A stretch of DNA of 45,490 bases from Aromatoleum diolicum (lineage in GTDB: Bacteria; Pseudomonadota; Gammaproteobacteria; Burkholderiales; Rhodocyclaceae), in the NCBI RefSeq assembly GCF_012910955.1, contig NZ_WTVQ01000038.1:1-45490 (forward strand), given 5' to 3'. Position 1 is the first letter of the stretch, and each line of letters starts with the position of its first letter. Below, one piece after another: positions 2,710 through 44,857 of this stretch. The translations under genes and the position numbers were made by a program. Under the pieces are notes generated by a model. It had not been told where the DNA came from. It ran no database searches and saw nothing but the letters and a program-made list of their open reading frames with translations.

Positions 2710-3621
2710 ATGCGGCGCAAGATTCCCAGCACGGCGGCGCTGCTCGCGTTCGAGCGGGCCGCGCGGCACGAGAGCTTCACGCGCGCGGCCGAAGAGCTGG
2801 CGCTGACGCAGAGCGCGGTGTGCCGCCAGATCGCGGCGCTGGAGGACTTCCTCGGGCTGCGGCTGTTCCGCCGCACCAAGCGCGGCGTCACGCTGACCGA
2901 GGCAGGGCTGTCGTACAGCCGCCAGATCAGCGCGCGGCTCGACGCGATGGAACGCGACACCTTGTCGGTAATGGCGCATCACGGCCGCGGCGCGACAATC
3001 GAGCTGGCCGTGATGCCGACCTTCGCGACGCGCTGGCTGTTGCCGCGGCTCGGCGGTTTTCTCGCGGGCCATCCCGACGTGACCGTGAACATGACCAATC
3101 GCACGCGGCCCTTCCTGTTCGCGGACACCGAATTCGATGCCGCGGTGTACTTCGGCGATGCCGGCTGGCCCGGTACCGAGGCGCACTTCCTGATGCGCGA
3201 AAACACCGTGCCGGTGTGCAGCCCGCGCATGCTCGGGGACCGTGCTGGCCTGACGGCGCAGGAAATCGCCGCACTGCCGCTATTGCAGCAGACGACGCGG
3301 CCCTACGCGTGGCGTCAGTGGTTCGGCTCGCTCGACCTGCACATCGCGCACGACATGACCGGCACCCGCTACGAGCTGTTCTCGATGCTCGCACAGGCGG
3401 CCATGCAGGACATGGGCGTCGCGCTGATCCCGCCTTTCCTGATCCAGGAAGAGCTCGACAGCGGCCGCCTGGTGATCCCGCTGCGGCACACCTACCTGAG
3501 CGACAAGGCCTATTACCTGATCATCCCCGAACGCAAGGCCGAAACCGCCTCGCTCGCCGCGTTCAGCGAGTGGCTGCTGGGCGTTGCGGCGGAATACCGC
3601 GTCGTTGCCGGGCTGGAGTGA
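2710..3621 (+). CDS. LysR-family transcriptional regulator (GcvA-like), probable regulator of gcdH
   Basis: This 303-residue protein has an N-terminal winged helix-turn-helix at about residues 6-64 (LLAFERAARHESFTRAAEEL, then SAVCRQIAALEDFLGLRLF). It continues with a LysR substrate-binding domain to the end (AVMPTFATRWLLPRL, FDAAVYFGD). The AxxHxSFTRAAEELxxTQSAVxRQI pattern and the IPPFLIQEELDSGRLV close of the effector domain place it in the GcvA-like group. It is divergent from gcdH with a T-N11-A palindrome in between, the usual LysR layout. By analogy with known LysR control of gcdH it may sense glutarate or glutaryl-CoA. That ligand is inferred, not seen. The start ATG follows GGGAGACATCG, a good ribosome site. 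Confidence 0.87.
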   Translation: MRRKIPSTAALLAFERAARHESFTRAAEELALTQSAVCRQIAALEDFLGLRLFRRTKRGVTLTEAGLSYSRQISARLDAMERDTLSVMAHHGRGATIELAVMPTFATRWLLPRLGGFLAGHPDVTVNMTNRTRPFLFADTEFDAAVYFGDAGWPGTEAHFLMRENTVPVCSPRMLGDRAGLTAQEIAALPLLQQTTRPYAWRQWFGSLDLHIAHDMTGTRYELFSMLAQAAMQDMGVALIPPFLIQEELDSGRLVIPLRHTYLSDKAYYLIIPERKAETASLAAFSEWLLGVAAEYRVVAGLE

Positions 3622-3640
3622 AGGCGGGCGGCCCGCCGTG

Positions 3641-5719
3641 TCAGGCCAGGATCGTGTCGCCGCAGACCCGATCGCGGCCGGTCTGCTTGGCGCGGTACAT
3701 CAGATCGTCGGCGCGTTTGAGCAGCGCGTCGGTGTCTTCGTCGGGGCGCAGCGTGACAACGCCGACACTCGCAGTCACGACGCCCGCGACCGGCGTCGGG
3801 CAGTCGCGCAGTGCCTGCAACAGGCGCTCGGCGAGCCCCGCCGCATCCGCGGCCGAGGTATCCGGACACAGCACCATGAATTCCTCGCCGCCCCAGCGTG
3901 CCAGCACGTCGGTACGGCGGATCGCCTCGCGCACCGTGTTCGCGGTGGCCGCCAGCACCTGATCGCCGGCGTCGTGGCCCCAGGTGTCGTTGATGCTCTT
4001 GAAGTTGTCGAGGTCGTACATGATCACCGACAGCGGATCGCCGTAGCGCCGCGTACGATCCACCTCGCGCTCGAGCACGCGATGCAGGTAGCCGCGGTTG
4101 TGGCAGCCGGTGAGGGGGTCGGTGGTGGCGAGGCGCACCAGTTCCTGTTCGTTGCGCTTGCGCTCGGTGATGTCGCGGTTGACGCCGATCATGCGTGCCG
4201 ACCGGTTTGCATTGCCCGGCACCAGCACGGCATGCGCATCGATATGACGGACTTCGTGGCCGTGGCGCAGGATGCGGAAGCTGGTCTCGAAGTCGCACCG
4301 TGTGCGCAGCGTTTCGTCGATCAGTGACTGCAGGTGTGGCAGATCGTCCGGGTGGATGTGCGCGGTGATATCCTCGAAACGGCCGTGGAACTGGTCCTGG
4401 GTCAGTCCGAAAATTTCGTACATGGTGCCGTCCCACACCACTTTGCCGGTTTCCGGTTCGTATTCCCAGATGCCGATATGCGCGGTACGGGTGGCCAGCG
4501 TCAGGCGCTGCGTCAGATGGCGGACTTCCGCTTCGGCGGTCTTGCGCGTCGTGATGTCCAGCATCAGGCCGCGCAGCAGCCTGGGTTCGCCGTTTTCGGC
4601 GACGACGGTGACAATGTCCTCGAGCCAGACGACGCGGCCGTCGGCGGCCATGAAGCGGTACTCGAAGCGATGGGGCTCCAGCCGGCCGGTGCATGAGATG
4701 CAGTATTGCGGCGCCCATTCGCGGTCCTCGGGATGCAGGTGTGCGACCCAGAAGCCCGGCTCCTGCCAGTTCGCGACCGGAAAGCCGAGCAGGCTTTCGG
4801 CCTTGAGGCTGACGAAGGAGAACACGAAGGTGTGCGCATCGGACTCCCAGACGATGCCGTCGGTGGTGTTGACCAGGTCGAGAAAGCGCTGGTGGTTGTG
4901 CCGCGCCTCCGCTTCGCTCGCGCGGTGGGCGGCGGTTTCGTCCGCCAGCTTGGCGGTACGCTCGGCAACGCGCTCCTCCAGCGTGGCAGTGAGCGTCTTC
5001 AGGCTGTCCCACTGGCGACGGTACTGGTGCAGGTAGACGAGCAGCATCAGACTGACCAGGGCCCACACCGCGGCGTGGCTCGCGATCTGGTCGCGCCGTG
5101 CGGCGGCGAGGCGCGCAACGAAGTCGCCGGCCGGAATCGACACGCTGATGCCGCCGCGCACGTCGCCCACGCGGTAGCCCTGTTTCTTATGGCAGTCCAT
5201 GCACTCGTCGCGCACCAGCAGCGGCGCCATGTAGCGGATCAGCGGACTGCCGTCGATGAGGATCTCGCTGCGTTCCTTCTCGGCCTGCCGATCAAATGCC
5301 TCGAGCGCCCGGGTTTCCCACGCGTCCGCCGCGTTGCCCGGATTGATCGGCCGCAGGCTCGTGATATGGATGCGGATGCCGGTTTCCGCGGCAATGACCC
5401 CGGCCATCTGGCGCGTCATGTAGGCAGGATTGACGGTGGTCAGGTGAATGCCCGAGGTGGTGACCGGGTCGCGTTCGGGCAGTTCGAGGTAGGGGTTGGG
5501 GCGAGTCGTTTCGCTCTGGCGGACCAGCACGCCGCCGGCGCGCGAGTTCCACAGGCGTGTCGCCTCGACCATGCGAAAGATGTCGCGCCCCTGCTGCCGT
5601 GCCGTCTCGAAGGCGGCCTGCCCGGTATTCTGGAGTACCAGGACGAGCGACAGCAGGATCAGCCCGGTCCATGCGCCCAGGGGTAGCAGCCAATACAGAC
5701 GATCGGGGAGGCGCAGCAT
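3641..5719 (-). CDS. Membrane diguanylate cyclase with periplasmic c-type haem sensor, two PAS domains and GGDEF
   Basis: This 692-residue protein should make c-di-GMP in response to a periplasmic redox or ligand signal. A transmembrane helix at about 10-31 and another at about 212-231 enclose a periplasmic domain of DUF3365/Tll0287 type. That domain carries CMDCHKK (Cys173, Cys176, His177), a c-type haem attachment motif. A charged, probably coiled segment (238-275) leads to two PAS domains (about 280-395 and 405-520) and a GGDEF domain. The active motif is GGEEF at 610-614, and RRTD (601-604) lies exactly five residues ahead, so the inhibitory I-site is intact. There is no EAL domain. It is the last gene of a leftward run with hemerythrin and HD-GYP genes. 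The DUF3365 label is from memory; the CxxCH, the helices and GGEEF are directly visible. Confidence 0.9.
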   Translation of the reverse strand: MLRLPDRLYWLLPLGAWTGLILLSLVLVLQNTGQAAFETARQQGRDIFRMVEATRLWNSRAGGVLVRQSETTRPNPYLELPERDPVTTSGIHLTTVNPAYMTRQMAGVIAAETGIRIHITSLRPINPGNAADAWETRALEAFDRQAEKERSEILIDGSPLIRYMAPLLVRDECMDCHKKQGYRVGDVRGGISVSIPAGDFVARLAAARRDQIASHAAVWALVSLMLLVYLHQYRRQWDSLKTLTATLEERVAERTAKLADETAAHRASEAEARHNHQRFLDLVNTTDGIVWESDAHTFVFSFVSLKAESLLGFPVANWQEPGFWVAHLHPEDREWAPQYCISCTGRLEPHRFEYRFMAADGRVVWLEDIVTVVAENGEPRLLRGLMLDITTRKTAEAEVRHLTQRLTLATRTAHIGIWEYEPETGKVVWDGTMYEIFGLTQDQFHGRFEDITAHIHPDDLPHLQSLIDETLRTRCDFETSFRILRHGHEVRHIDAHAVLVPGNANRSARMIGVNRDITERKRNEQELVRLATTDPLTGCHNRGYLHRVLEREVDRTRRYGDPLSVIMYDLDNFKSINDTWGHDAGDQVLAATANTVREAIRRTDVLARWGGEEFMVLCPDTSAADAAGLAERLLQALRDCPTPVAGVVTASVGVVTLRPDEDTDALLKRADDLMYRAKQTGRDRVCGDTILA

Positions 5720-32330: not shown

Positions 32331-32380
32331 GAATTCCTCGCCCGGTGCGACGCCGGGTGAATGATGCGACGGAGCCGGCG

Positions 32381-34006
32381 ATGCACCGACTGCCTGCACT
32401 TCAAATTTTGCTGCGTGGCGTGTTGCTGTTGACGCTGCTTGTCGGGCCGGCGCGCGCCGCGCTCGACGAAGGCATGGTGGCGGGCTTCGCTGGCGACTTC
32501 CAGAGCCGCCTCGACACCATCGAGGCCCTGGGCGTGGCCGGCGGCGCGGAGGGTGGCAACGAGGCGCGCCGCGTGCTCGACGCGCTCGAAGCCGGTGCGC
32601 TTGGTGTAGCCGGCGGCAGGGTGGTGATCGTGCATGGCGACACGGTTGCCGCGGCGGCCACCGGGGAAGCGCTCGATATCGCGCCCGCGGCGGTCGAGCC
32701 CGTGACCGTGAATAACCGCGTGCGCCGCGCGCTCGCCACCGCAAGGGCGGCGCTGGCGCTGTCGTCGGCGGATCGCGGCGAGCGCCTCGCAGCGGCGCGC
32801 ACGCTCGCCGACAACACCGGCGAAACGCTGCTGCCGGTATTCGAGCGGGCGCTGGCGAGCGAAGCCGACGACGAGATCCGCGGCGTGCTCGGCCGCGCTG
32901 CCGCGCGCGTGTATCTCGCTTCGGGCGATGCCGCCAGGCGCCTGAAAGCCGCCGAGATGCTCGGCGAATCGTCCGATCCGGCGGTGAAGAACCTGCTCGC
33001 GGCGCTGCTGGCAAAGAACGGCAACGACTGGTCCGAGCCGAGCGCCGAAGTGCGTGCCGCCGCCGAGGCCTCGATCCGCGCCATCGACCGCCGCGTCGCC
33101 ACCGCCGAGGCCGTCGGCACGCTGTTCTCCGGCCTGTCGCTGGGCTCGATCCTGCTGCTCGCGGCGCTGGGTCTCGCGATCACCTACGGCGTCATGGGTG
33201 TCATCAATATGGCGCACGGCGAACTGCTGATGGTGGGCGCGTACGCGACTTTCGTCGTGCAGGGTGTCTTCCGCAATCACTTCCCGGCCTACGTCGATTG
33301 GTACGTCGTCGCCGCGATCCCGGTCGCCTTCCTGTCCGCCGCGCTGGTCGGTGTCGCGATGGAGCGCCTGGTGCTGCGCCACCTCTACGGCCGTCCGCTG
33401 GAAAGCCTGCTCGCGACCTGGGGCCTGTCGCTGGTGCTGATCCAGGCCGCGCGCGTGAGCTTCGGCCCGCAGAACCTCGAACTCGCGAACCCGACGTGGA
33501 TGTCGGGCGGCATCGAGATGGCGGCTGGTGTGGTGTTGCCGTGGAACCGCATCGTCATCGTCGGCTTCGCGGTGTTCGTGCTGCTCTTGATCTGGCTGAT
33601 GATGCAGAAGACCCGCCTGGGCATGTTCGTGCGCGCGGTCACGCAGAACCGTCCGATGGCGGGCTGTGTCGGCGTGCCCACCGCGCGCGTCGATACGCTG
33701 GCGTTCGCGATCGGCTCGGGCGTGGCCGGTCTCGGCGGCCTCGCGCTGTCGCAGATCGCCAACGTCGGTCCGGCGATGGGCACCGGCTACATCGTGGATG
33801 CCTTCATGGTCGTGGTGCTCGGTGGCGTCGGCCAGCTTGCCGGCGCGGTGTGGGCGGCGCTGGGGCTCGGGATCGTCGGCAAATTCCTCGAAGGCTGGGC
33901 CGGCGCGGTGATCGCGAAGATCCTCGTGCTGGTGTTCATCATCATCTTCATCCAGAAGCGGCCGCAGGGGATTTTTGCGCTGAAGGGAAGGTTTGCGGAC
34001 AACTGA
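32381..34006 (+). CDS. urtB: Urea ABC transporter permease UrtB
   Basis: A 541-residue permease. After a signal-like helix (LQILLRGVLLLTLLVGPARAA) there is a long N-terminal extracytoplasmic region (about 25-245) of Ala-rich helices, a feature that distinguishes UrtB from ordinary LivH permeases. The membrane domain follows: GLSLGSILLLAALGLAITYGVMGVINMAHGELLMVGAY. It contains the family motif FGPQNLELANPTW and the LGGVGQLAGAVWAALGLGIVG loop. The ATG at 32381 is chosen because GGAG lies 6 nt upstream. Longer GTG starts at 32345 and 32357 lack a ribosome site. A pair of palindromic repeats separates it from urtC. Confidence 0.95.
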   Translation: MHRLPALQILLRGVLLLTLLVGPARAALDEGMVAGFAGDFQSRLDTIEALGVAGGAEGGNEARRVLDALEAGALGVAGGRVVIVHGDTVAAAATGEALDIAPAAVEPVTVNNRVRRALATARAALALSSADRGERLAAARTLADNTGETLLPVFERALASEADDEIRGVLGRAAARVYLASGDAARRLKAAEMLGESSDPAVKNLLAALLAKNGNDWSEPSAEVRAAAEASIRAIDRRVATAEAVGTLFSGLSLGSILLLAALGLAITYGVMGVINMAHGELLMVGAYATFVVQGVFRNHFPAYVDWYVVAAIPVAFLSAALVGVAMERLVLRHLYGRPLESLLATWGLSLVLIQAARVSFGPQNLELANPTWMSGGIEMAAGVVLPWNRIVIVGFAVFVLLLIWLMMQKTRLGMFVRAVTQNRPMAGCVGVPTARVDTLAFAIGSGVAGLGGLALSQIANVGPAMGTGYIVDAFMVVVLGGVGQLAGAVWAALGLGIVGKFLEGWAGAVIAKILVLVFIIIFIQKRPQGIFALKGRFADN

Positions 34007-34020
34007 TACGTTGGGGGGCA

Positions 34021-34118
34021 GGTGTTGGCGGCCAGGGGTGTCTGCTCCGTGGCTGCGGAACTCGCCCTTCGGGCAGACAGTCCTCGCCCCTCCGCAGACA
34101 CCCCTGGCCGCCAACACC
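34021..34118 (+). repeat. Large palindromic repeat, copy 1 (urtB-urtC gap)
   Basis: Outer arms 34021-34045 and 34094-34118 are perfectly complementary over 25 bp. The interior carries the family blocks GGCTGCGGAACTCGC and CAGACAGTCCTCGCC, which can pair through GG(A)ACT with AGTCC. The central hairpin is short in this copy (GCCC-TTC-GGGC). No protein is encoded. It forms an inverted pair with copy 2, 41 bp away. Confidence 0.9.
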
Positions 34119-34159
34119 GCGAACGTTGTGTGCACGGCCCAAAAGGAAACAGCGTCGAT

Positions 34160-34239
34160 CGGGGCATTTGCGGCGCGGGCGAGGACTGTCTGAGCGAGTG
34201 TAACGAGCGAGTTCCGCAGCCCGCAGAGCAAATACCCCG
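34160..34239 (-). repeat. Large palindromic repeat, copy 2 (urtB-urtC gap)
   Basis: Same family, opposite orientation. Outer arms 34160-34171 and 34228-34239 match at 11 of 12 positions. Reading the minus strand gives GGGCTGCGGAACTCGC, a different centre without a convincing hairpin, and CAGACAGTCCTCGCCC. The inner CGGGC/GCCCG pairing is kept. The remaining 66 bp to urtC hold nothing else except its ribosome site, AGAAGGAGG. Confidence 0.87.
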
Positions 34240-34305
34240 GGCGGCGCAAGCGAAGGCACGGCCCGTTGGGGCTTGGCGAATTGAAACAAGAAGGAGGCGC
34301 CACAA

Positions 34306-35553
34306 ATGCGCACCCCGTTCACCATAAGACTGATCCAGAGCATGCCGCGAACCGGCTGGATCGCCCTCGCGCTCTTCGCCGCGATCACCTGGATCGGGGT
34401 GCCCGTCGCCCACCTGGCGCTGCCCGAGGGCCACCCGCTGTACCTGTCGGCCTACACCGTCAGCCTGCTCGGCAAGATCCTGTGCTACATGGTCGTTGCC
34501 GTCGCAATGGACCTCATCTGGGGCTACGCCGGCATTCTCAGCCTCGGCCACGGCCTCTTCTTCGCCCTCGGCGGCTACGCCTTCGGCATGTATCTGATGC
34601 GCCAGATCGGCCGCGACGGCAGCTACCAGAGCGATCTGCCCGACTTCATGGTGTTCCTCGACTGGAAGGAACTGCCCTGGTACTGGGCCGGTTCCGACTC
34701 CTTCCTGTGGTCCGCCCTCCTCGTCATGGCGCTGCCCGGCCTCATCGCCTTCATCTTCGGCTACTTCGCCTTCCGCTCGCGCATCAAGGGCGTGTACTTC
34801 TCCATCATCACCCAGGCGCTGACCTACGCCGCGATGCTGCTGTTCTTCCGCAACGAAACCGGCTTCGGCGGCAACAACGGCTTCACCGACTTCAAACGCA
34901 TCCTCGGCCACAGCATCACCTCGCCCGAGATGCGCGTGACGCTCTTTGCCCTGTCCGCGGCACTCCTCGTCGCCTGCCTGATCCTCGGCCGCTACCTCGT
35001 CACCTCGCGCTTCGGCCGCGTGCTCGCCGCGATTCGCGATGCCGAGAGTCGCGTCATGTTCATCGGCTACAACCCGCTGCACTACAAACTCTTCATGTGG
35101 ACCCTGTCGGCGGTGCTGTGCGGCATCGCCGGCGCGCTGTACGTGCCCCAGGTGGGCATCATCAACCCGTCCGAAATGAGCCCCGCCAACTCCATCGAAA
35201 TCGCCGTATGGGTCGCCGTAGGCGGGCGCGGCACGCTCGTCGGTGCGGTGCTCGGCGCCGGCATCGTCAACCTCGCGAAAAGCTGGTTTACCGTGTCCTT
35301 CCCCGAATACTGGCCCTTTTTCCTCGGCTTCCTGTTCATCGCGGTCACGCTGTACCTGCCTGACGGCGTCGTCGGCCTGTGGCGCAAGTTGCGCACCCGC
35401 AAGGCCGAGCTGCCCCCTGCGGCGCCGGTGTCGGCGAGGGGGGCGACGACGGCGACACTACCCGCCGATGCGCGCCCGGGTGTGCAGCCCGACGCCACGG
35501 TGATGGAATCCGGCGCGCCCAGCATTGCCGCAGCCAAAGGAGCGACCGCATGA
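34306..35553 (+). CDS. urtC: Urea ABC transporter permease UrtC
   Basis: A 415-residue second permease subunit with about ten membrane helices. It includes YAGILSLGHGLFFALGGYAFGMYLM, the UrtC motif FFRNETGFGGNNGFTDFKRILG and GVVGLWRKLRTRK near the end. A Pro/Ala-rich tail of about 45 residues follows the last helix and is probably cytoplasmic. The start ATG has AAGGAGG upstream, a strong ribosome site that may allow it to be translated independently after the repeat pair. Its stop overlaps the urtD start as ATGA. Confidence 0.95.
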   Translation: MRTPFTIRLIQSMPRTGWIALALFAAITWIGVPVAHLALPEGHPLYLSAYTVSLLGKILCYMVVAVAMDLIWGYAGILSLGHGLFFALGGYAFGMYLMRQIGRDGSYQSDLPDFMVFLDWKELPWYWAGSDSFLWSALLVMALPGLIAFIFGYFAFRSRIKGVYFSIITQALTYAAMLLFFRNETGFGGNNGFTDFKRILGHSITSPEMRVTLFALSAALLVACLILGRYLVTSRFGRVLAAIRDAESRVMFIGYNPLHYKLFMWTLSAVLCGIAGALYVPQVGIINPSEMSPANSIEIAVWVAVGGRGTLVGAVLGAGIVNLAKSWFTVSFPEYWPFFLGFLFIAVTLYLPDGVVGLWRKLRTRKAELPPAAPVSARGATTATLPADARPGVQPDATVMESGAPSIAAAKGATA

Positions 35554-36419
35554 ACGCCGTCTCCACCGACCTCGACCGCGCCGCGGCGGACGCTTTCGCG
35601 ACGCGCGAAAACCTGCGCGAACAATGGGAGGGCGAGGCCTCGACGAGCCATCTGGTGCAGCAGGGCGAGCTGGATCTGTCGCACAACGTCATCCTGTATC
35701 TGGACGACATCACGGTGAGTTTCGACGGCTTCCGTGCGCTCAACAAGTTGTCGCTGGAAATCGACGCCGGCGAGCTGCGCTGCATCATCGGCCCGAACGG
35801 CGCCGGCAAGACGACGATGATGGACGTCATCACCGGCAAGACGCGGCCCGATTCGGGCAAGGCCTTCTTCGGCCAGACGATCGACCTGACGCGCCTCACG
35901 GAGCCGCAGATCGCGCACGCGGGCATCGGCCGCAAGTTCCAGAAGCCGACGATCTTCGAGCAGCACACGGCGTTCGAGAATCTGGAGCTGGCGATGAAGG
36001 CGGACAAGCGCGTGCGCCGCACGCTGTTCGCGGCCTTGTTCGGCGACGAACGTGATCGTATCAGTGAGGTGTTGCGTCAGATCCGTCTCGACAAGGAGGC
36101 CGACCGGCAGGCGGGGCTGTTGTCGCACGGCCAGAAGCAGTGGCTGGAGATCGGCATGCTGCTGATGCAGGAGCCGCGCCTGTTGCTGCTGGACGAGCCA
36201 GTAGCGGGCATGACGGACGACGAGACGGAGCGCACGGCGGAGTTGTTCGTGAGTCTTGCCGGCAAGCATTCGCTGGTGGTGGTGGAGCACGACATGGCCT
36301 TTGTCGAGGCCTTGGGCGGCAAGGTGACGGTGTTGTGCGAAGGATCGGTGCTGGCGGAAGGGGATCTGGCGACGGTGCAGGAGGATCCGCGGGTGATCGA
36401 GGTGTATCTGGGCCGCTGA
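35550..36419 (+). CDS. urtD: Urea ABC transporter ATP-binding protein UrtD
   Basis: A 289-residue ATPase subunit. Walker A is GPNGAGKTT, the signature region LSHGQKQWLEIGMLLMQEP is a variant of LSGGQ, and Walker B is LLLLDEPVAGMT, followed by VVEHDMAFVE. About 45 residues before the ATPase fold are polar and extend the usual start. The ATG at 35550 overlaps the urtC stop and has AAAGGAG upstream. A longer frame to 35379 would lie inside urtC and is rejected. A 388-bp gap with two palindromic repeats separates it from urtE. Confidence 0.95.
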   Translation: MNAVSTDLDRAAADAFATRENLREQWEGEASTSHLVQQGELDLSHNVILYLDDITVSFDGFRALNKLSLEIDAGELRCIIGPNGAGKTTMMDVITGKTRPDSGKAFFGQTIDLTRLTEPQIAHAGIGRKFQKPTIFEQHTAFENLELAMKADKRVRRTLFAALFGDERDRISEVLRQIRLDKEADRQAGLLSHGQKQWLEIGMLLMQEPRLLLLDEPVAGMTDDETERTAELFVSLAGKHSLVVVEHDMAFVEALGGKVTVLCEGSVLAEGDLATVQEDPRVIEVYLGR

Positions 36420-36461
36420 GAAAGAAGGAATGAAGCGGCCTTCGATAACGAACATCGCAAG

Positions 36462-36570
36462 CCGGACATTGGGGGTGTTCCCGCAGCGGCGAGGACTGTC
36501 TGAGCGGAGGCGCGGAAGCGCGCCGTCCCGCGAGTTCCGCAGCCGCGGAGGGAATACCCCCTGTGGCCGG
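36462..36570 (-). repeat. Large palindromic repeat, copy 3 (urtD-urtE gap)
   Basis: Outer arms 36462-36482 and 36550-36570 match at 17 of 21 positions. On the minus strand the interior reads GGCTGCGGAACTCGCG, a central hairpin GGCGCG-CTTC-CGCGCC, and CGCTCAGACAGTCCTCGCC. The inner pair is GCGGC/GCCGC instead of CGGGC/GCCCG, a compensatory change. It is the left member of an inverted pair with copy 4. Confidence 0.9.
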
Positions 36571-36649
36571 CGGTTAGCAGCAAGACCCCAATCGCTCACG
36601 GAATTTGGTGCGATTGTGAAAGCGGTGCTGGGAGATCGTGGGAGTAATC

Positions 36650-36760
36650 GCCGGCTGTGGCGGGTAATTGCTCCAGGGCTGCGGAACTCGCGCAGCAGCG
36701 CGCTTCCGCGCTTGCGCTCAGACAGTCCTCGCCCTTCCGCAAACACCCGCCACATCCGGC
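36650..36760 (+). repeat. Large palindromic repeat, copy 4 (urtD-urtE gap)
   Basis: Outer arms 36650-36671 and 36739-36760 match at 19 of 22 positions. The interior has GGGCTGCGGAACTCGCG, the hairpin AGCGCG-CTTC-CGCGCT and GCGCTCAGACAGTCCTCGCCC. Both the closing pair of the hairpin (A-T instead of G-C) and the inner stem (AGGGC/GCCCT) show compensating changes. Between copies 3 and 4 there is only a small inverted repeat, CAATCGC (36589-36595) with GCGATTG (36610-36616). Confidence 0.9.
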
Positions 36761-36807
36761 TTGGCGGCGGAGGCTTGGTGGGCGCGTATTTTGGAAAGGA
36801 ATGGAAC

Positions 36808-37500
36808 ATGCTGAAAGTCGACAACCTGAACCAATACTATGGCGGTAGCCACATCCTGCGCGGCCTCTCTTTCGAAGTGCCGCTCGGCAAGGTCACCACG
36901 CTGCTCGGGCGCAATGGCGTCGGCAAGACCACGCTGCTCAAGACCCTGATGGGACTCGTGCCCGCTGCCAGCGGCAAGGTCACCTTCGGCGACGAGGACA
37001 TCACCCGCGCCCCCTCGCATGCCCGTGTGCGTGCCGGCATCGGCTTCGTGCCGCAAGGGCGCGAAATCTTCCCAAGGCTCACCGTCGAAGAAAACCTGCT
37101 CATGGGCCTCGCCACGCGGCCGCGCGGCACCCCGATGCCCGCGCGCATCTTTGACATGTTCCCGGTGCTCAAGCAGATGCTCGGCCGACGTGGCGGTGAC
37201 CTCTCCGGCGGCCAGCAACAACAGCTCGCCATCGGCCGTGCGCTCGCCTTCGGACCGAAACTGCTCATCCTCGACGAACCCACCGAAGGTATCCAGCCCT
37301 CGATCATCAAGGACATCGAGCGCGCCATCCGCAGCCTCGCCGAAACCGGCGAGATGGCGATTTTGCTCGTCGAACAGTATTACGACTTCGCCCGCTCGCT
37401 CGCCGACCACTACCTCGTCATGGAACGTGGCGAGATCGTGATGCGCGGGGCGGGCGCCAACATGGAGGCCGATGGCGTGCGCGAGGCCCTGGCGGTGTAA
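36808..37500 (+). CDS. urtE: Urea ABC transporter ATP-binding protein UrtE
   Basis: A 230-residue ATPase subunit of normal length, beginning MLKVDNLNQYYGGSHILRGLSF. Walker A is GRNGVGKTT, the signature is LSGGQQQQLAIGRAL and Walker B is LLILDEPTEGIQPSIIKDIE. The motif VPQGREIFPRLTVEENL is typical of the second, LivF-like ATPase. The ATG at 36808 has AAAGGAATGG upstream. An upstream in-frame reading region crosses the repeat pair and is not a credible coding extension. It is the last urt gene and converges on a YihY gene. Confidence 0.96.
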   Translation: MLKVDNLNQYYGGSHILRGLSFEVPLGKVTTLLGRNGVGKTTLLKTLMGLVPAASGKVTFGDEDITRAPSHARVRAGIGFVPQGREIFPRLTVEENLLMGLATRPRGTPMPARIFDMFPVLKQMLGRRGGDLSGGQQQQLAIGRALAFGPKLLILDEPTEGIQPSIIKDIERAIRSLAETGEMAILLVEQYYDFARSLADHYLVMERGEIVMRGAGANMEADGVREALAV

Positions 37501-37569
37501 GACCGGAAATTCCGTTCGCCGCCCGGCACCTCGTCTGCAACATTCGCGCGCATCTGGGACACCGTCCAG

Positions 37570-38469
37570 TCAGCCCCGCCCGGTCGTGAACGGCTGCGGT
37601 CGCGCTTCAGTCTCGCCATTGCCGGCGCGTTCGAACTCGGCGATCACCTGAGCGCCCAGCAACAGCAGCGTTGCTGCAACCTCCAGGCTCAGCAGCACCG
37701 CGATGGTTGTCGTCAGCGAGCCGTAAACGGTGCTGATCTGCGACAGCGTGGCGAAGTACCACACCAGCGCATGGCGCGACAGCTCCCACAGCAGGGCCGC
37801 GGTGACTGCACCGATCAGCGCGTGCTGCAGCGACAGCCGGCCCACCGGCATCACCAGGTACACGGACGTCAGCACGAAGATTTCGCCCGCGAGACCCAGC
37901 AGATAGAGCAGCACACCGGACACGCCGCCGAGTGACCAGCTGCGCCCGAGGAATTCCACCTGTTCCTCGCCCATCGCCTGAATGCTGCCTGCCACCAGCG
38001 TCACCAGCAGCAACCCGAACGCGAGCGACACGATGTAGACATACGGGATCACCGCAGAAACGAGAAAATGGCGCCGCCTGATCGCCACCCGGTGGTGGAA
38101 GATCACCGACATCGCGTTTTCCAGCACGGTGAAGGCCAGCGAGCTGAAGAACAGCATCGTGGCCAGCAAGACCCAGCCGATGACTTCACGGTGCGCGAGG
38201 AAATTCGCCAGTTCCGCGAGGATCGCTCGCGAGTGCCCCGGCATCAGCCATTCGAGGTAGCGCCCGAGGGTCCGCAGCAACTCGTTTTCATCGATGATGT
38301 GCGACAGCCCGATCACGGTCAGGATCAGCAGCGGCACCGTCGACAGCAAGGCGTAATAGGCGATCGCGCCGGCCAGCAGCAGGCCCTGGTTGGCGCGAAA
38401 CGCCTTCAGTGTCCGCAGGACGAACGCGCCCGGGTGCTTGAGGACTTCAGCGGTGTGGCCGGTCAGCAT
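37570..38469 (-). CDS. YihY/UPF0761 family inner membrane protein
   Basis: A 299-residue protein with about six hydrophobic helices. They include GLLLAGAIAYYALLSTVPLLILTVIGLS near the N-terminus and VIGWVLLATMLFFSSLAFTVLENAMSVIF. The AYYALLSxVPLLIL segment marks the YihY family, older name BrkB or ribonuclease BN-like. The family has no established enzymatic role; the RNase BN label came from an early mistake. It converges with urtE with a 69-bp gap in which no terminator hairpin was seen. The tail GNGETEARPQPFTTGRG is polar. Confidence 0.85.
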   Translation of the reverse strand: MLTGHTAEVLKHPGAFVLRTLKAFRANQGLLLAGAIAYYALLSTVPLLILTVIGLSHIIDENELLRTLGRYLEWLMPGHSRAILAELANFLAHREVIGWVLLATMLFFSSLAFTVLENAMSVIFHHRVAIRRRHFLVSAVIPYVYIVSLAFGLLLVTLVAGSIQAMGEEQVEFLGRSWSLGGVSGVLLYLLGLAGEIFVLTSVYLVMPVGRLSLQHALIGAVTAALLWELSRHALVWYFATLSQISTVYGSLTTTIAVLLSLEVAATLLLLGAQVIAEFERAGNGETEARPQPFTTGRG

Positions 38470-38724
38470 GGTTGCATGGATGCGGAATCCCGCATGGTTT
38501 GTCGGAAGGCAGCGTCAGACTACACCGATGCGCGGGCGACGGCACCGGCGCAGTTCATCGTCGATACGGTCGCCGGCGCCGTCATGATCGACCGCGCCGT
38601 AACGCGCCCTTGCGCAAACGATCATCCCCATGCACGATGGACTGTTCGCCTTCTCCGATACCCGAAGGCGCCTGCGCGGCGAGTTCGTTCCTGCATGCAC
38701 CCACCTCCTGATTCGTCCCGCTTC
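38470..38724. other. Divergent spacer, no gene or clear site seen
   Basis: These 255 bp separate the starts of the leftward YihY-family gene and the rightward lipoprotein gene, so promoters for both should lie here. No hexamer pair, hairpin or repeat stands out. The frames that cross it do not resemble proteins. Confidence 0.35.
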
Positions 38725-39837
38725 ATGCCCGTCGCTTCGCGTGCCGGCCAGTGGCTTGCCGCCTTGGGCATCGCCACGCTGGTCGGCTGTGCGAGCGAAG
38801 TGCGCCTGCCCGAGCCCCCGCCGGCACGCCCCGCCGAGGTCCGCTCGAAGATCGCAAACTTGCTGCCCGCCAGTACCGCCGATCGCTCGGGCTGGGCCGT
38901 GGATATCTACGCGGCGTTCGCGGCGCAGGGGATCACGCCGAACCAGTCGAACATCTGCGCCGTGCTTGCCGTCACCGAACAGGAGTCGACCTTTCGCGCC
39001 GACCCGCCGGTCGCCAACCTCGCGCGCATTGCCTGGGAGGAGATCGACCGTCGCGCCGAGCGCCTGGGCGTGCCCAAGCTTGCCGCGCGCGTAGCCCTGC
39101 AACTGTCGTCCTCCACCGGCAAGAGCTATAGCGAGCGCATCGATGCGGTGAAAACCGAGCGGGAACTGAGCGAAATATTCGAGGACTTCATCGGCATGGT
39201 GCCGATGGGGCAGCGCCTGTTCGGCGGCTTGAATCCGGTGCGGACCGGTGGCGCAATGCAGGTCAGCATCGCCTTTGCCGAAGAGTACGCGAGGGAGCAC
39301 ACCTACCCCTACGCCGTGGCCGGTTCGATCCGCCACGAAGTGTTCACGCGCCGTGGCGGCCTGTATTTCGGCATCGCGCATCTGCTCGATTACCCGGCAT
39401 CCTACGACAAGCAGCTCTACCGCTTTGCCGACTTCAATGCCGGCCGCTACGCGAGCCGCAACGCCGCGTTCCAGAGCGCGGTGAGCGTGGCGTCGGGCAT
39501 ACCGCTCGACCTCGATGGCGATCTGGTGCGCCACGGCGACGATGATGAGACCCGGCCTGGCAGCACGGAGCTTGCGGTGCGCTCGCTCGGCAAGCGCCTC
39601 GACCTGGATCAGCGGGCGATCCGCGGTGCGCTCGAACAGGGCGATAGCGCCGATTTCGAGCGCAGCACGCTCTACCAGCGCGTGTTCGACCTGGCGGACA
39701 GGATCGAGCGCCGCCCCCTGCCGCGCGCGGTGGTGCCGCGCATCGCGCTGAAGGGGCCCAAGATCAGCCGCAAGCTCACCACCGAATGGTTCGCCAAGCG
39801 GGTCGACGAGCGGCATCAGCGATGCCTCGCGCGCTGA
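38725..39837 (+). CDS. DUF1615 family lipoprotein
   Basis: A 370-residue predicted lipoprotein. The leader MPVASRAGQWLAALGIATLVGCAS has a lipobox LVGC, so the mature protein would be lipid-anchored at the cysteine. The mature part starts with a Pro-rich linker. It continues IANLLPASTADRSGWAVDIYAAF, QSNICAVLAVTEQESTFRADPPVANL and HLLDYPASYDKQLYRFADFNAGRYASRNAAFQ. The AVxEQEST segment resembles the active-site helix of lytic transglycosylases, so a peptidoglycan-related role is conceivable. That is only an inference; the DUF1615 family itself has no assigned function. An upstream ATG at 38695 would add ten residues ahead of the signal and is less likely. Confidence 0.8.
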   Translation: MPVASRAGQWLAALGIATLVGCASEVRLPEPPPARPAEVRSKIANLLPASTADRSGWAVDIYAAFAAQGITPNQSNICAVLAVTEQESTFRADPPVANLARIAWEEIDRRAERLGVPKLAARVALQLSSSTGKSYSERIDAVKTERELSEIFEDFIGMVPMGQRLFGGLNPVRTGGAMQVSIAFAEEYAREHTYPYAVAGSIRHEVFTRRGGLYFGIAHLLDYPASYDKQLYRFADFNAGRYASRNAAFQSAVSVASGIPLDLDGDLVRHGDDDETRPGSTELAVRSLGKRLDLDQRAIRGALEQGDSADFERSTLYQRVFDLADRIERRPLPRAVVPRIALKGPKISRKLTTEWFAKRVDERHQRCLAR

Positions 39838-39891
39838 ACTGGGTGCTGCGCGTGGAGTCGCTGAGGCGCCTGTCACGGTCCGACGGAGGCG

Positions 39892-39966
39892 TTAGCGCAG
39901 CCCGAAAAACGACAAGATCACTAACACGATGACGATCAGACCGACGATGTAAACGATGCTGTTCAT
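39892..39966 (-). CDS. 24-residue hydrophobic membrane peptide
   Basis: The minus strand from 39966 reads MNSIVYIVGLIVIVLVILSF and ends FGLR before a TAA. Almost the whole peptide is one membrane helix with an Arg at the C-terminus. GAGGT lies 10 nt ahead of the ATG, a strong and well-spaced ribosome site. Small single-helix peptides of this form occur in other proteobacteria, but no function can be given. It is convergent with the DUF1615 gene and stands alone. Confidence 0.65.
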   Translation of the reverse strand: MNSIVYIVGLIVIVLVILSFFGLR

Positions 39967-40238
39967 GAGATTTACCTCGATGTGAGTTAAGCGACCGGAT
40001 CGCCGTTACCGCGCGATTCACCCGTCACCGATTCCACAGTACCCGTGTCGGTCGGCCGGTTCCGTACGTCAGCGCGCACAGCAGCGTATAAATTCCGCGG
40101 GCGCCTTCCGGGCACGAATTCGTGACATTCGAAAAAATCCCCATGCGTTCGGTAACGAACGGAGTTGCGCCGCCATTGCGATCAGATTAGAGGGGCAAGC
40201 ACGCGCATCCGATTTTTACACGTCACCTGGAGATCCCG
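39967..40238. other. Spacer between the small peptide and the 98-residue gene
   Basis: These 272 bp must hold the divergent promoters of the peptide gene and the 98-residue gene. The part around 40120-40140 and 40205-40220 is AT-richer (GAAAAAATCC, GATTTTTACA). No confident hexamer pair or operator could be assigned. Confidence 0.35.
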
Positions 40239-40535
40239 ATGGATAACCCGAACCTCACGCACGCCTCAGCGACCGATCAGCAGGGATGGAAAAACGAGGA
40301 ATACCACGGCAGGCAAATACATGTCTGCGCGAATCCTTGCGCCGAGCAAAACGAAACGCTTGCCGGCCATGGACAGCAAGGGGGTTTCATGGTGAACATC
40401 ACGGCGCCGGGCGCCGGACCCATGTCTGATACCGTCGCTCGCGCCCAGTCAGATCCGGAACTCTTCTATTCCACGCAAGCCATCGCTGAAGAAATGGGCT
40501 TCATCAAAGGCCGGGAACTCATTGACGGGATCTGA
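40239..40535 (+). CDS. Small protein of unknown function, 98 residues
   Basis: I do not recognise this protein. It is soluble and polar, beginning MDNPNLTHASATDQQGWKN, with YHGRQIHVCANPCAEQNETL holding two cysteines four residues apart, and ending AIAEEMGFIKGRELIDGI. CTGGAGA lies just upstream of the ATG, which supports translation. It precedes the alternative oxidase by 164 bp on the same strand. Cotranscription is possible but not shown. Confidence 0.6.
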   Translation: MDNPNLTHASATDQQGWKNEEYHGRQIHVCANPCAEQNETLAGHGQQGGFMVNITAPGAGPMSDTVARAQSDPELFYSTQAIAEEMGFIKGRELIDGI

Positions 40536-40699
40536 CTGCCGGCTGCGCACCATGCCTGGAAAAAACCTGGGCGCGCACTAAAGTCTCGGTGTGATGGTGC
40601 GCCATTCAGTCGCAAGCAGGCAGGCGCCGGAGGGGGGCCTTTGGCTGGCTGACGGTCCTGCATGCACGGCGAAAGTGAGCAATACACAAGGCTGCACGT

Positions 40700-41314
40700 A
40701 TGTCAGAAACGCCCCCGCTTGAGCGGCACCACGTTCCACGCGATTTCTCGGACCGGATTGCGCTGGCCTTCACCAAGGCGATGCGCTTCTTCGCCGACAC
40801 GGTCTTCGCCCGTCGCTACGGCCATCGTGCGGTGGTGCTGGAAACGGTTGCTGCCGTGCCCGGCATGGTGGGCGGCGCGCTGCAGCATCTGCGTGCGCTG
40901 CGCCGGATGGAAGGCGACCGCGGCTGGATCCGCACGCTTCTGGACGAAGCGGACAACGAACGCATTCACCTGATGACCTTCATTCATGTTGCCCAGCCGA
41001 CGCGGTTCGAGCGTCTGCTGATCGTGATCGCGCAGGGCGTCTTCTTTAACTTCTACTTCCTGCTGTACCTGATCTCGCCACGGACCGCGCATCGCGTCGT
41101 CGGTTATTTCGAGGAGGAGGCGGTCTACAGTTACACCGAGTATCTGGCTGGCGTGGACAACGGCACCTACGCCAACATCCCGGCGCCGAAGATCGCGATC
41201 GATTACTGGAATCTCGCCCAGGACGCGCGCCTGCGCGAGGTCATCGTCGCGGTGCGTGCCGATGAACTCCATCACCGCGATGTCAATCACGCCTTTGCCG
41301 ACGAGCTGAGCTGA
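40700..41314 (+). CDS. aox: Alternative oxidase (cyanide-insensitive ubiquinol oxidase)
   Basis: A 204-residue di-iron oxidase of the AOX family, which passes electrons from ubiquinol to oxygen without pumping protons. All ligand motifs are present: Glu48 in VLETVA, Glu87 and His90 in NERIHL, Glu139 in FEEEA, and Glu189 and His192 in [12 protein letters not shown]. The DYW after the fourth block is also kept. There is a hydrophobic segment near 107-127 ([20 protein letters not shown]). It is shorter than plant AOX because it lacks the targeting region. AOX is common in plants and fungi and found in only part of the proteobacteria. It could support respiration under cyanide, nitric oxide or sulfide stress. 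The ATG follows AAGG by 8 nt. Confidence 0.93.
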
Positions 41315-41319
41315 GCCGA

Positions 41320-41350
41320 CCCGGCGTCGGCATGCAGGAGCGACGCCGGG
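41320..41350 (+). terminator. 10-bp perfect hairpin after the alternative oxidase
   Basis: CCCGGCGTCG (41320-41329) and CGACGCCGGG (41341-41350) pair perfectly across an 11-nt loop, five bases after the oxidase stop. No T-run follows, so it may be a terminator of the factor-dependent kind or an mRNA-stabilising stem. It separates the oxidase from the urease genes. Confidence 0.55.
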
Positions 41351-41431
41351 CGCAGGATGGTGAGCGCCGCTCGATCCTGTCCTGTGTTCCATCGCTCTTC
41401 CATCGCTCGCGCCTGGCCTGAGGATTGCTAC

Positions 41432-42319
41432 ATGACGTGCATGAATGCCGTCGTCGACGCCCTTCCTGGCCTTGAGCCCACGTTTTCGCCGCAGCCCGGC
41501 GCATCCGGATGGTGCGCCGAGCTCGGGCTCCAGTTCGCACGCCGGGGCGCTCGCACTGTTCTTGTGCGTCGGCACCATTTTGGGCCGCTGCGCGTGCAGA
41601 AGGCGCTGTACCCGGAAGGCGAGGGCGTGTGCCACGGCATCGTGCTGCATCCGCCGGCCGGCATCGCCGGGGGCGACTCGCTGGTGATCGACGTCAAGGT
41701 GGATGAGGGGGCGCACGCCTTGCTGACGACGCCGGGTGCCGGCAAGTGGTATCGCAGCGCCGGGCCGTCCGCAGGGCTGACGCAGCGCATCGCGGTGGCC
41801 GACGGCGCCGTGTGCGAGTGGTTGCCGCAGGAGACCATCGTCTTCGATGGCGCTTTGGGCACCCTCGGCACGGACGTGACGCTGCAGGGCGATGCGCGCT
41901 TCATTGGTGCCGAGATGCTGTGTTTCGGCCGTACCGGCGCGGGTGAGCGTTTCACCCGCGGCGAACTGGCGCTGCAAACGCGCATCTGCCGCGACGGGCG
42001 CCCTGTGTGGCTGGAGCGCGGGCGGATCGGTGGCGGCAGCGCGCTGCTGGATTCGCCGGTGGGGCTGGCGGGCCAGCCTGTCGTCGGCACCTTGCTGGTG
42101 GCGGCGCCGGCCTGCGACACGGCTTTGCGTGATGTCTGCCGCGACATCGTGCCGAGCGTCGGCGAGGGCGCGGTGACCTTGTTACCGGGCTTGCTGGTGG
42201 CGCGTTATCTGGGTCCGGCGTGCGAACCGGGGCGGCAGTGGTTCACGCGGCTGTGGGGTGCGGTTCGGCCGGTGGTGACGGGCTTGCCGATGTGCGTGCC
42301 GCGCATATGGAATACCTGA
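41432..42319 (+). CDS. ureD: Urease accessory protein UreD
   Basis: A 295-residue chaperone that binds apo-urease with UreF and UreG during nickel insertion. Family blocks are [66 protein letters not shown] and [14 protein letters not shown]. The ATG at 41432 is 7 nt after GAGGA; the upstream in-frame ATG at 41357 has no ribosome site and adds an unrelated leader. It heads ureD-A-B-C-E. ureF and ureG are not in the window and would be expected to the right. Confidence 0.93.
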
Positions 42320-42347
42320 GGGAATACCTGAACGAGGACAGGACGAG

Positions 42348-42650
42348 ATGGAACTGACCCCACGCGAGAAGGACAAGCTGCTGCTGTTTACCGCGGGTCT
42401 GCTCGCCGAGCGCCGGCGCGCGCGCGGCCTGATGCTGAACTACCCGGAGGCGGTCGCGCTGATCTCGTGCGCGATCCTCGAAGGCGCACGTGACGGGCGC
42501 ACGGTGGCCGAGCTGATGAGCGAGGGTACGACGATCCTGACCCGCGAAGAGGTCATGGAGGGCGTACCGGAGATGATCCCGGAGATCCAGGTCGAGGCGA
42601 CTTTTCCGGACGGCACGAAGCTCGTGACCGTGCATAACCCGATCGTGTGA
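42348..42650 (+). CDS. ureA: Urease gamma subunit
   Basis: A 100-residue structural subunit of normal length: [20 protein letters not shown], then [28 protein letters not shown], ending [10 protein letters not shown]. These match UreA throughout. It packs around the alpha and beta subunits of cytoplasmic urease. It starts 28 nt after ureD and is separated from ureB by a 189-bp gap that contains a palindromic repeat, which is unusual because urease structural genes normally lie close together. Confidence 0.98.
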
Positions 42651-42682
42651 GGGGCGTGGGATGTCGTCCATTGTTGCTGCCC

Positions 42683-42799
42683 GCGCCTTGACGGGTGGGA
42701 ATTTGCTCCGTCGGGCTGCGGAACTCGCGTGCGGCGCGCTTCCGCGCCTGCGCTCAGACAGTCCTCGCCCGCTCCGCAAACTCCCACCCGTCAAGGCGC
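42683..42799 (+). repeat. Large palindromic repeat, copy 5 (ureA-ureB gap)
   Basis: Outer arms 42683-42706 and 42776-42799 match at 23 of 24 positions and are unrelated in their outer half to those of the other copies. The interior reads CGGGCTGCGGAACTCGCG, hairpin GGCGCG-CTTC-CGCGCC, and GCTCAGACAGTCCTCGCCCG. It is the most complete copy and the only one outside the urt operon. Confidence 0.92.
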
Positions 42800-42839
42800 T
42801 ACGCGGCGCCACGACCGACAATTTTTGGGAGAAAGATTA

Positions 42840-43141
42840 ATGATTCCCGGTGAATTTCTCGTCGCCGATGGCGACATCGGACTCAACGCCGGCCGCGTGA
42901 CGCTGACGCTGGCGGTCACCAATACCGGCGACCGGCCGATCCAGGTCGGCTCGCATTACCACTTCGCCGAAACCAATGCCGCGCTCGCCTTCGACCGCGC
43001 CGCGGCGCGCGGCTTCCGGCTGAACATCGCCGCCGGCACGGCGGTGCGTTTCGAGCCGGGGCAGTCGCGCACCGTCGAGCTCGTCGTGCTGGCGGGCGAG
43101 CGCAAGGTCTTCGGCTTCAACGGCGACGTGATGGGGGCGTT

Positions 43142-43145
<4 letters not shown>
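42840..43145 (+). CDS. ureB: Urease beta subunit
   Basis: A 101-residue subunit starting [19 protein letters not shown], with [21 protein letters not shown] and the [10 protein letters not shown] end. The GSHYHFxExN block is the UreB signature. GGGAGAAAG upstream gives an independent ribosome site, needed because a palindromic repeat lies between it and ureA. The stop overlaps the ureC ATG as ATGA, so beta and alpha subunits are coupled. Confidence 0.97.

Positions 43146-44857
<1,712 letters not shown>

Follow-up and report, generated by a model that had tools for sequence, protein, structure and literature searches.

Palindromic elements in the urea operons of Aromatoleum diolicum belong to a family with a core common to several phyla

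In a 45,490-nucleotide stretch of the Aromatoleum diolicum genome (contig NZ_WTVQ01000038.1 of assembly GCF_012910955.1, hereafter the window), five similar palindromic elements stand between genes for urea transport and urease. What are these elements, and why are they found inside operons? A first-pass annotation of the window had offered a non-autonomous element resembling repetitive extragenic palindromic (REP) sequences, an mRNA processing or stability device, or a regulatory RNA structure shared by the nitrogen regulon. From our analysis the palindrome family itself is well supported. Its copies are few, occur as inverted doublets, are placed without regard to orientation downstream of genes and persist at sites within operons. 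Their hairpins are conserved above their surroundings and show compensatory changes, and inner loops are common to the sites of one genome. One spacer has been inverted repeatedly, elements have been lost from single genomes, and the same core occurs in several phyla. The interpretation that we favor, and to which we give about an even chance, is a non-autonomous palindrome similar to REPs and bacterial interspersed mosaic elements (BIMEs), which spread as inverted doublets and was retained as an mRNA hairpin within operons. Sequence comparison indicates that the element has probably spread as a mobile repeat, and its conservation and placement suggest that it may punctuate operon messages.

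Structure of the five copies

An exact search for the two 15-mer blocks that mark the element gave five occurrences of each in the window, always jointly, in agreement with the places and strands first reported. The closest other matches in the window have two mismatches (one match, to block A, at 5542 on the minus strand) or three. Copy 1 (34021-34118, plus strand, core 34051-34088) and copy 2 (34160-34239, minus strand, core 34178-34221) form an inverted pair between urtB (32345-34006), a urea ABC transporter permease gene whose called open reading frame (ORF) has a long N-terminal extension, and urtC (34306-35553). A second inverted pair, copy 3 (36462-36570, minus strand, core 36488-36544) and copy 4 (36650-36760, plus strand, core 36677-36733), is located between urtD (35550-36419) and urtE (36808-37500). 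Copy 5 (42683-42799, plus strand, core 42714-42769) stands singly between ureA (42348-42650) and ureB (42840-43145), which encode the gamma and beta subunits of urease. All these genes are on the plus strand, and the flanks and the inverted pairs are those that the first-pass annotation had described.

From the outside in, each copy consists of a variable arm, a 5' strand CTGCGGAACTCGC, an inner stem-loop, a 3' strand GCTCAGACAGTCCTCG and the partner arm. The arms differ from copy to copy yet pair inside each copy, and the inner stem-loop is short and varies in length and sequence. Pairing between CTGCGGAACTCGC and GCTCAGACAGTCCTCG is partial: GGA pairs with TCC, TC pairs with GA, and a bulge and an internal loop separate these two stretches; in copy 1 the GCT before CAGACA is missing from the 3' strand. 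The element length in Aromatoleum is 80-125 bp. Nine folds (both strands of copies 2-5 and the plus strand of copy 1) had z scores of -2.95 to -8.40 relative to shuffled sequences. For seven of the nine, none of 200 shuffles folded as well, and for both strands of copy 2 one of 200 did; the fold is thus far better than that of shuffles for copies 1, 3, 4 and 5 and moderately better for copy 2.

Stable GC-rich hairpins downstream of genes might be intrinsic terminators or attenuators between operon genes, but in the palindromes the stem is not followed by a run of T residues. A terminator scan of positions 33900-42950 found three terminator-like sites, with 5.8 expected from shuffles, and none of the three is a palindrome, which bears out the earlier remark that T-runs are absent. 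In addition, these stems with internal loops are far longer than intrinsic terminators, and expression of the downstream subunit genes is required. We therefore regard termination as extremely unlikely.

No element, among those of the window and 16 other loci, matched an Rfam family at the gathering threshold, and in positions 33900-36900 there were only weak, chance-level matches (E-values 0.28-2.7). Another lead, "skipping-rope" RNA, likewise gave no Rfam match, and likenesses to the hairpin ribozyme and to kink-turns were considered and dropped. Elsewhere in the window, RF02514 (5' ureB small RNA) matched 43296-43578 on the minus strand, antisense to the urease alpha gene, with 105 bits; this match is perhaps a mere reflection of conserved coding sequence.

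Copies elsewhere in the genome and in the genus

Genomes, contigs and loci are designated below by G, C and L numbers, respectively, with G000 being the genome of the window. A covariance model built from the five window copies was run on this 5.15-Mb genome. The search scored 150 of 3271 first-look candidates, such that diverged copies were possibly missed; covariance searches generally scored 150 of some 3000-4600 candidates per genome. The 10 rows returned correspond to 9 distinct places and at least 9 copies, and four of the nine places are outside the window. Confinement to urea genes, as first proposed, thus holds within the window and fails for the genome. On C94, an inverted pair occupies the gap between cysD and cysN (named from their translations); C63 has a copy between ctaD and a cox11-type assembly gene, and C135 has one between the ureidoglycolate lyase gene allA and a gene for a GntR-type regulator.

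Of the 17 genus genomes, 15 had matches to the model; an exact pattern likewise matched 15 of the same 17, and 21 of 61 relatives overall. Hundreds of copies at random intergenic sites had been named as the case against a urea-specific role. Copy numbers are instead 9 in the genome of the window, 1-14 in the other copy-bearing genomes examined, and 32 in one genome found with a shorter pattern. About ten types of site within operons were recognized: cysD/cysN, urtB/urtC, urtD/urtE, ureA/ureB, ctaD/cox11, narG/narH, dioxygenase alpha/beta, allA/amiS-ureI, allA/regulator, and a site beside a phosphoribulokinase gene. Gene names at these sites are mostly backed by family searches, in which a dioxygenase alpha fragment and one of two NarH fragments had no Pfam match. 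Forty-five genus loci were read, one of them without a pattern match and one without a called left gene. The genes on both sides had the same direction in all 43 loci with genes called on both flanks, many of these loci being orthologous. The called start of an ORF overlaps the element in L316, L332, L334, L343 and L344.

Urea, allantoin or nitrate genes are involved at six of the ten site types, by a count made after the fact; this may be a bias, or may come from chance or local spread. The sites at cysD/cysN, at ctaD/cox11, in a ring-hydroxylating dioxygenase operon and beside phosphoribulokinase, together with the unrelated housekeeping neighbors in other taxa described below, led us to reject a urea- or nitrogen-specific regulatory RNA as the rule.

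Copies less than 500 bp apart were inverted in all 56 distinct pairs (a set not thinned for orthology), with spacings of 86-387. A second core form was also seen, in which a longer strand, which itself contains a small hairpin, takes the place of the GGAACTCGC 5' strand and the 3' strand is unchanged. It occurs at L022:1501-1654 (G000:C135:26947-27100), in the cysD/cysN gaps of G013 and G016, and in the urtB/urtC gap of G015. A separate type of palindrome, TAGGGCGGAT..ATCCGCC, which has the look of a GTAG-type REP, adjoins copies in the urtB/urtC gaps of G015 and G016 and at about 1670-1700 of L022.

Conservation, loss and inversion at orthologous sites

When CysN was searched for independently of the element, the locus was found in 16 of the 17 genus genomes. 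The inverted pair is present in 14 of these 16 cysD/cysN gaps, which are then 378-494 bp long, and the order of the pair is the same in all 14. There is no element in the gap of G009 (47 bp) or G011 (84 bp). G009 is nested beside the pair-carrier G012 in a cysDN tree (support 0.98) and so has lost the pair; the placement of G011 is without support (0.05).

Among the 14 pair-bearing gaps, mean pairwise identity with gaps counted is 0.84-0.94 for the hairpin segments, 0.35 for the spacer and 0.48 for the left flank. The genes themselves are 0.90 identical, and every third column about 0.79. The two core halves are identical at 0.98 (28 copies) and 0.99 (26 copies, two with the other 5' half being omitted). 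Compensatory cells numbered 8, as against 2.5 in shuffles, and 0.838 of cells were paired, as against 0.801; neither value was reached in 2000 shuffles. Seven pair types were seen, as against 5.0 in shuffles, a value reached by 103 of the 2000. One position pair in the outer helix takes four standard pair types. The inner loops switch wholesale between species and are common to sites within one genome, which points to conversion between copies.

Of eight genomes with urtC, G000 has two elements between urtB and urtC (318 bp) and G016 (294 bp) and G015 (334 bp) have one each. None is present in G004 and G011, with 29-bp gaps, or in G001, G013 and G014, with gaps of about 10-13 bp. Such losses without trace, the presence of urtB/urtC elements in only three of eight urt loci, and loops that are genome-specific and exchanged between sites are what would be expected of a selfish or neutral repeat, that is, of old palindromes that spread, were copied between sites through conversion and play no part in expression, their presence between genes being tolerated. 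However, the cysD/cysN hairpins are more conserved than third codon positions, spacer and flanks, they carry compensatory changes, and the pair has been kept in most genomes. We consider this explanation unlikely.

Between urtD and urtE, the segment separating the cores of copies 3 and 4 (36545-36676) has one orientation in G000, G001, G004 and G014 and the opposite one in three relatives, G013, G015 and G016. On the cysDN tree, G001 and G016 are sisters, as are G013 and G015, so that this spacer must have flipped at least twice. These flips, the invariably inverted pairs and the absence of strand bias would fit a site acting at the DNA level, through recombination with spacer inversion, cruciform formation, or domain-boundary or gyrase binding as proposed for BIMEs, with the RNA hairpin being incidental. 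Against this, the cysD/cysN pair order is unchanged throughout, and many copies have no close partner (of the 121 with enough flank, 35 are paired). Complementarity within a pair extends over as much as 119 nt, at 78%, and ordinary homologous recombination may thus explain the flips. A DNA-level site is in our judgment very unlikely.

Occurrence and placement beyond the genus

In a contig collection with one genome per species, the exact core with a free gap was found in at least 119 stretches. By record title, the matches listed comprise 93 from Pseudomonadota, 2 untitled ("bacterium") and 24 from outside Pseudomonadota (Actinomycetota 12, Patescibacteria 5, Bacillota 3, Campylobacterota 2 [one metagenome-assembled genome (MAG)], Desulfobacterota 1 and Bacteroidota 1), with the reservation that titles of MAGs can be wrong. 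About 0.0002 matches would be expected by chance with uniform bases. These copies were fetched by means of the exact core, and the invariance of the core among them is by construction. In favor of the titles, the G+C content of the arms tracks that of the locus (r = 0.67, 95 loci), and several non-proteobacterial genomes have 2-7 copies and a genome-specific loop. Own arms pair with a median score of 12.8 as against 6.8 for swapped arms, 139 of 193 exceeding the 95th percentile of swaps.

A stricter pattern matched 20 of 250 genomes of the order. A shorter one matched 10 of 150 Pseudomonadota genomes, with 6 control matches. Palindromic arms were present in five of the ten (G000, G128, G390, G420 and G432), one of which had the 32 matches; the other five look like chance, and the short pattern over-counts. 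The flanks in the short-pattern genomes have little in common beyond AACTCGC and GCTCAGACA, and the same is true of 21-nt matches on megaplasmids of Ilyobacter (Fusobacteriota) and Aureibacter (Bacteroidota). Judging from these comparisons, the general core is probably the shorter AACTCGC/GCTCAGACA version. At L092, L102 and L105 and in 54 aligned Gallionella-type copies, the palindrome belongs to a longer element (about 250 nt) whose upstream module consists of CCGGGGGTAGCCCGGC, then a GTTACTTTTTCTTG/CAAGAAAAAGTAAC hairpin, then AAAGAAGGCGACCC. A hairpin resembling this module is also seen near the Ilyobacter and Aureibacter matches.

A viral collection contained one contig with the long core and seven with a short core with a TNCG loop. 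BLAST searches of phage, plasmid and E. coli sequences used a single probe each, which would miss other loops; on these terms, there was no match in 50,697 phage records or 5,426 E. coli genomes, and among 72,556 plasmid records the 21-nt inner sequence was found in two and a 45-base Gallionella-type piece in one. With so few viral and plasmid matches, and none in the phage records with the probe used, a phage or plasmid element was rejected.

Among the matches listed, 137 copies are on titled contigs: 95 have genes on both sides, 40 are near a contig edge and 2 fall in a called ORF. Genes were called by a simple composition score, so that placement counts are approximate. The 95 gaps comprise 65 codirectional, 26 convergent and 4 divergent ones, compared with 303, 65 and 63, respectively, for all neighboring gene pairs on the same contigs; divergent pairs are thus avoided. 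In the 65 codirectional gaps, 31 copies are on the strand of the genes and 34 on the opposite strand; there is no strand bias. Sampled neighbors in other taxa include formate-tetrahydrofolate ligase with cyclodeaminase, moaC, a fatty-acid-oxidation pair, uvrC, a release factor, a chaperonin and S-adenosylmethionine synthetase. At two loci (L130:4591-7480 and L174:3747-6249), inverted copies with near-identical arms flank 2.5-2.9 kb of ordinary genes, named by eye as a chromate-transporter-like pair and as a peptidase-like and a helicase-like ORF.

These data also bear on the possibility of a structured RNA that is not mobile, such as a protein-binding hairpin, a regulatory element or a ribozyme, selected for its internal loop. 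What counts would then be AACUCGC opposite GCUCAGACA and the UCA bulge, with the stems merely presenting the internal loop. Three observations are in keeping with this: at cysD/cysN the core halves are nearly identical amid variable arms, loops and spacer, the core recurs in several phyla between arms that are unrelated, and there are compensatory changes. It is difficult to reconcile with the use of either strand relative to the genes, with inverted pairs, which make one partner antisense, with unrelated neighboring genes, and with the Rfam result. We think this possibility doubtful, about on a par with the selfish or neutral repeat.

Comparison with known repeats and search for a mobilizing protein

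The elements resemble REPs and BIMEs in being palindromic repeats between genes, in forming inverted dimers (all of the close pairs), and in being orientation-neutral and downstream of genes. They also show enrichment of the GTAG foot: CTAC, its complement on the other strand, stands at the right foot of 18 of 69 genus copies and 50 of 148 others, compared with 0-6 of 69 and 5-7 of 136-143 in windows further out. A CGTC foot was not enriched (8 and 2 of 69). Unlike the 20-40 bp of REPs, the elements are 80-125 bp long, and REP families are mostly lineage-specific whereas the core described here is common to several phyla.

Other comparisons were by function or description. The REPs between malE and malF of E. 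coli and the puf hairpin of Rhodobacter are intercistronic hairpins that stabilize mRNA; the mode of action is that proposed here, and the likeness drawn is one of function. ERIC, NEMIS/Correia, RUP and BOX repeats are likewise short, palindromic and intergenic, and roles in mRNA stability have been reported or proposed for them; their sequences presumably differ from those of our elements. These repeats are named in PMC3110155, which describes the beta-proteobacterial repeat element (BRE) as about 90 bp long, mostly intergenic, present in 1-29 copies and thought to be mobile now or formerly, with a single listing for Azoarcus sp. EbN1. The BRE is reported there in betaproteobacteria and in tandem arrangement, while our elements are inverted; by this description, it could be a relative of the palindrome family. 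PMC3733652 describes REP dimers of opposite orientation, with head-tail dimers being rare, and reports that no transposase is dedicated to CGTC REPs. We found no description of the core in the portions of the REP and BRE literature examined (open-licence PMC papers).

The first-pass annotation had suggested looking for a REP-type tyrosine transposase (RayT). The Y1 transposase family PF01797 is absent from the genome of the window and from 10 of 23 genomes searched, unlike the situation for GTAG REPs, and present in 13, among them G009 and G011, the genus genomes without copies. PF01797 does not accompany the copies, and a RAYT-driven REP was rejected. An autonomous element with an internal gene was rejected as well: ORFs between ten more distant pairs were unrelated by eye, and clustering yielded no family. 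The largest clusters were ABC-type ATPases, genes of the urt and cys loci, and spurious ORFs running through the repeat.

Several of these observations count against the REP/BIME-like reading. All 10 genomes without PF01797 carry copies, although several are incomplete MAGs, and no gene family was associated with copies when 814 ORFs within 3 kb were clustered. There are about 9 copies here, compared with more than 100 for classic REPs, and the GTAG foot is found only in a minority, compared with most members of REP families. Two of the 137 copies lie inside called ORFs, which are possibly false. The shuffle control for compensatory changes leaves the kinship of the genomes in, and conservation at orthologous sites could be in part due to conversion between copies. 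Lastly, none of the comparisons revealed a new insertion: at cysD/cysN, where the case is clean, the pair was lost. Thus, of the REP-like element first proposed, the inverted doublets and the placement downstream of genes stand, while length, copy number, GTAG tag and Y1 transposase do not agree. Because length, copy number, minority tag and missing transposase are all un-REP-like, the element, which is longer and rarer than classic REPs, is not classed as a REP; it works like one.

Proposed role of the element

Under the REP/BIME-like interpretation, we propose a factor that reads the core because the core is fixed, and a functional role because the elements are conserved inside operons. The core would be the structure recognized by a hairpin-acting factor that is supplied in trans and spread the element as doublets. 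This factor would be either a transposase or nuclease for single-stranded DNA or a widespread protein that binds hairpins. In either orientation between operon genes, an element would then form a stable hairpin in the polycistronic RNA. This hairpin would shield the upstream cistron from 3'-5' exonucleases, or serve as a processing site that is cut, and such punctuation would help to set the ratio of neighboring subunits. The RNA-hairpin step would account for the retention of the elements, and the factor acting in trans for their fixed core. As for the mRNA device first suggested, strong hairpins and conserved intra-operon sites speak for it, and the RNA role is what we infer from them. In its least demanding form, the role would be to let neighboring cistrons have separate fates by means of an RNA hairpin, whichever way the element points.

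A broader version of this proposal, which we put forward more tentatively, is a bacteria-wide hairpin motif in which the AACTCGC/GCTCAGACA core would be read by one widespread factor that both spreads palindromes as inverted doublets and punctuates operon RNA. The core would be extended to CTGCGGAACTCGC and GCTCAGACAGTCCTCG in many taxa, the doublets would stand at the 3' side of genes, and arms and loops would follow the base composition of the host provided that they pair.

The same center in Pseudomonadota, Actinomycetota, Bacillota and Patescibacteria, with varying surroundings, is unusual for a palindromic repeat. If one kind of factor reads this core, that factor would be new and could be found. 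The genus Aromatoleum provides a natural experiment, in that orthologous operons differ in having two copies, one copy, an inverted spacer or no element at all, and an effect of the element on the ratio of subunits would be directly testable.

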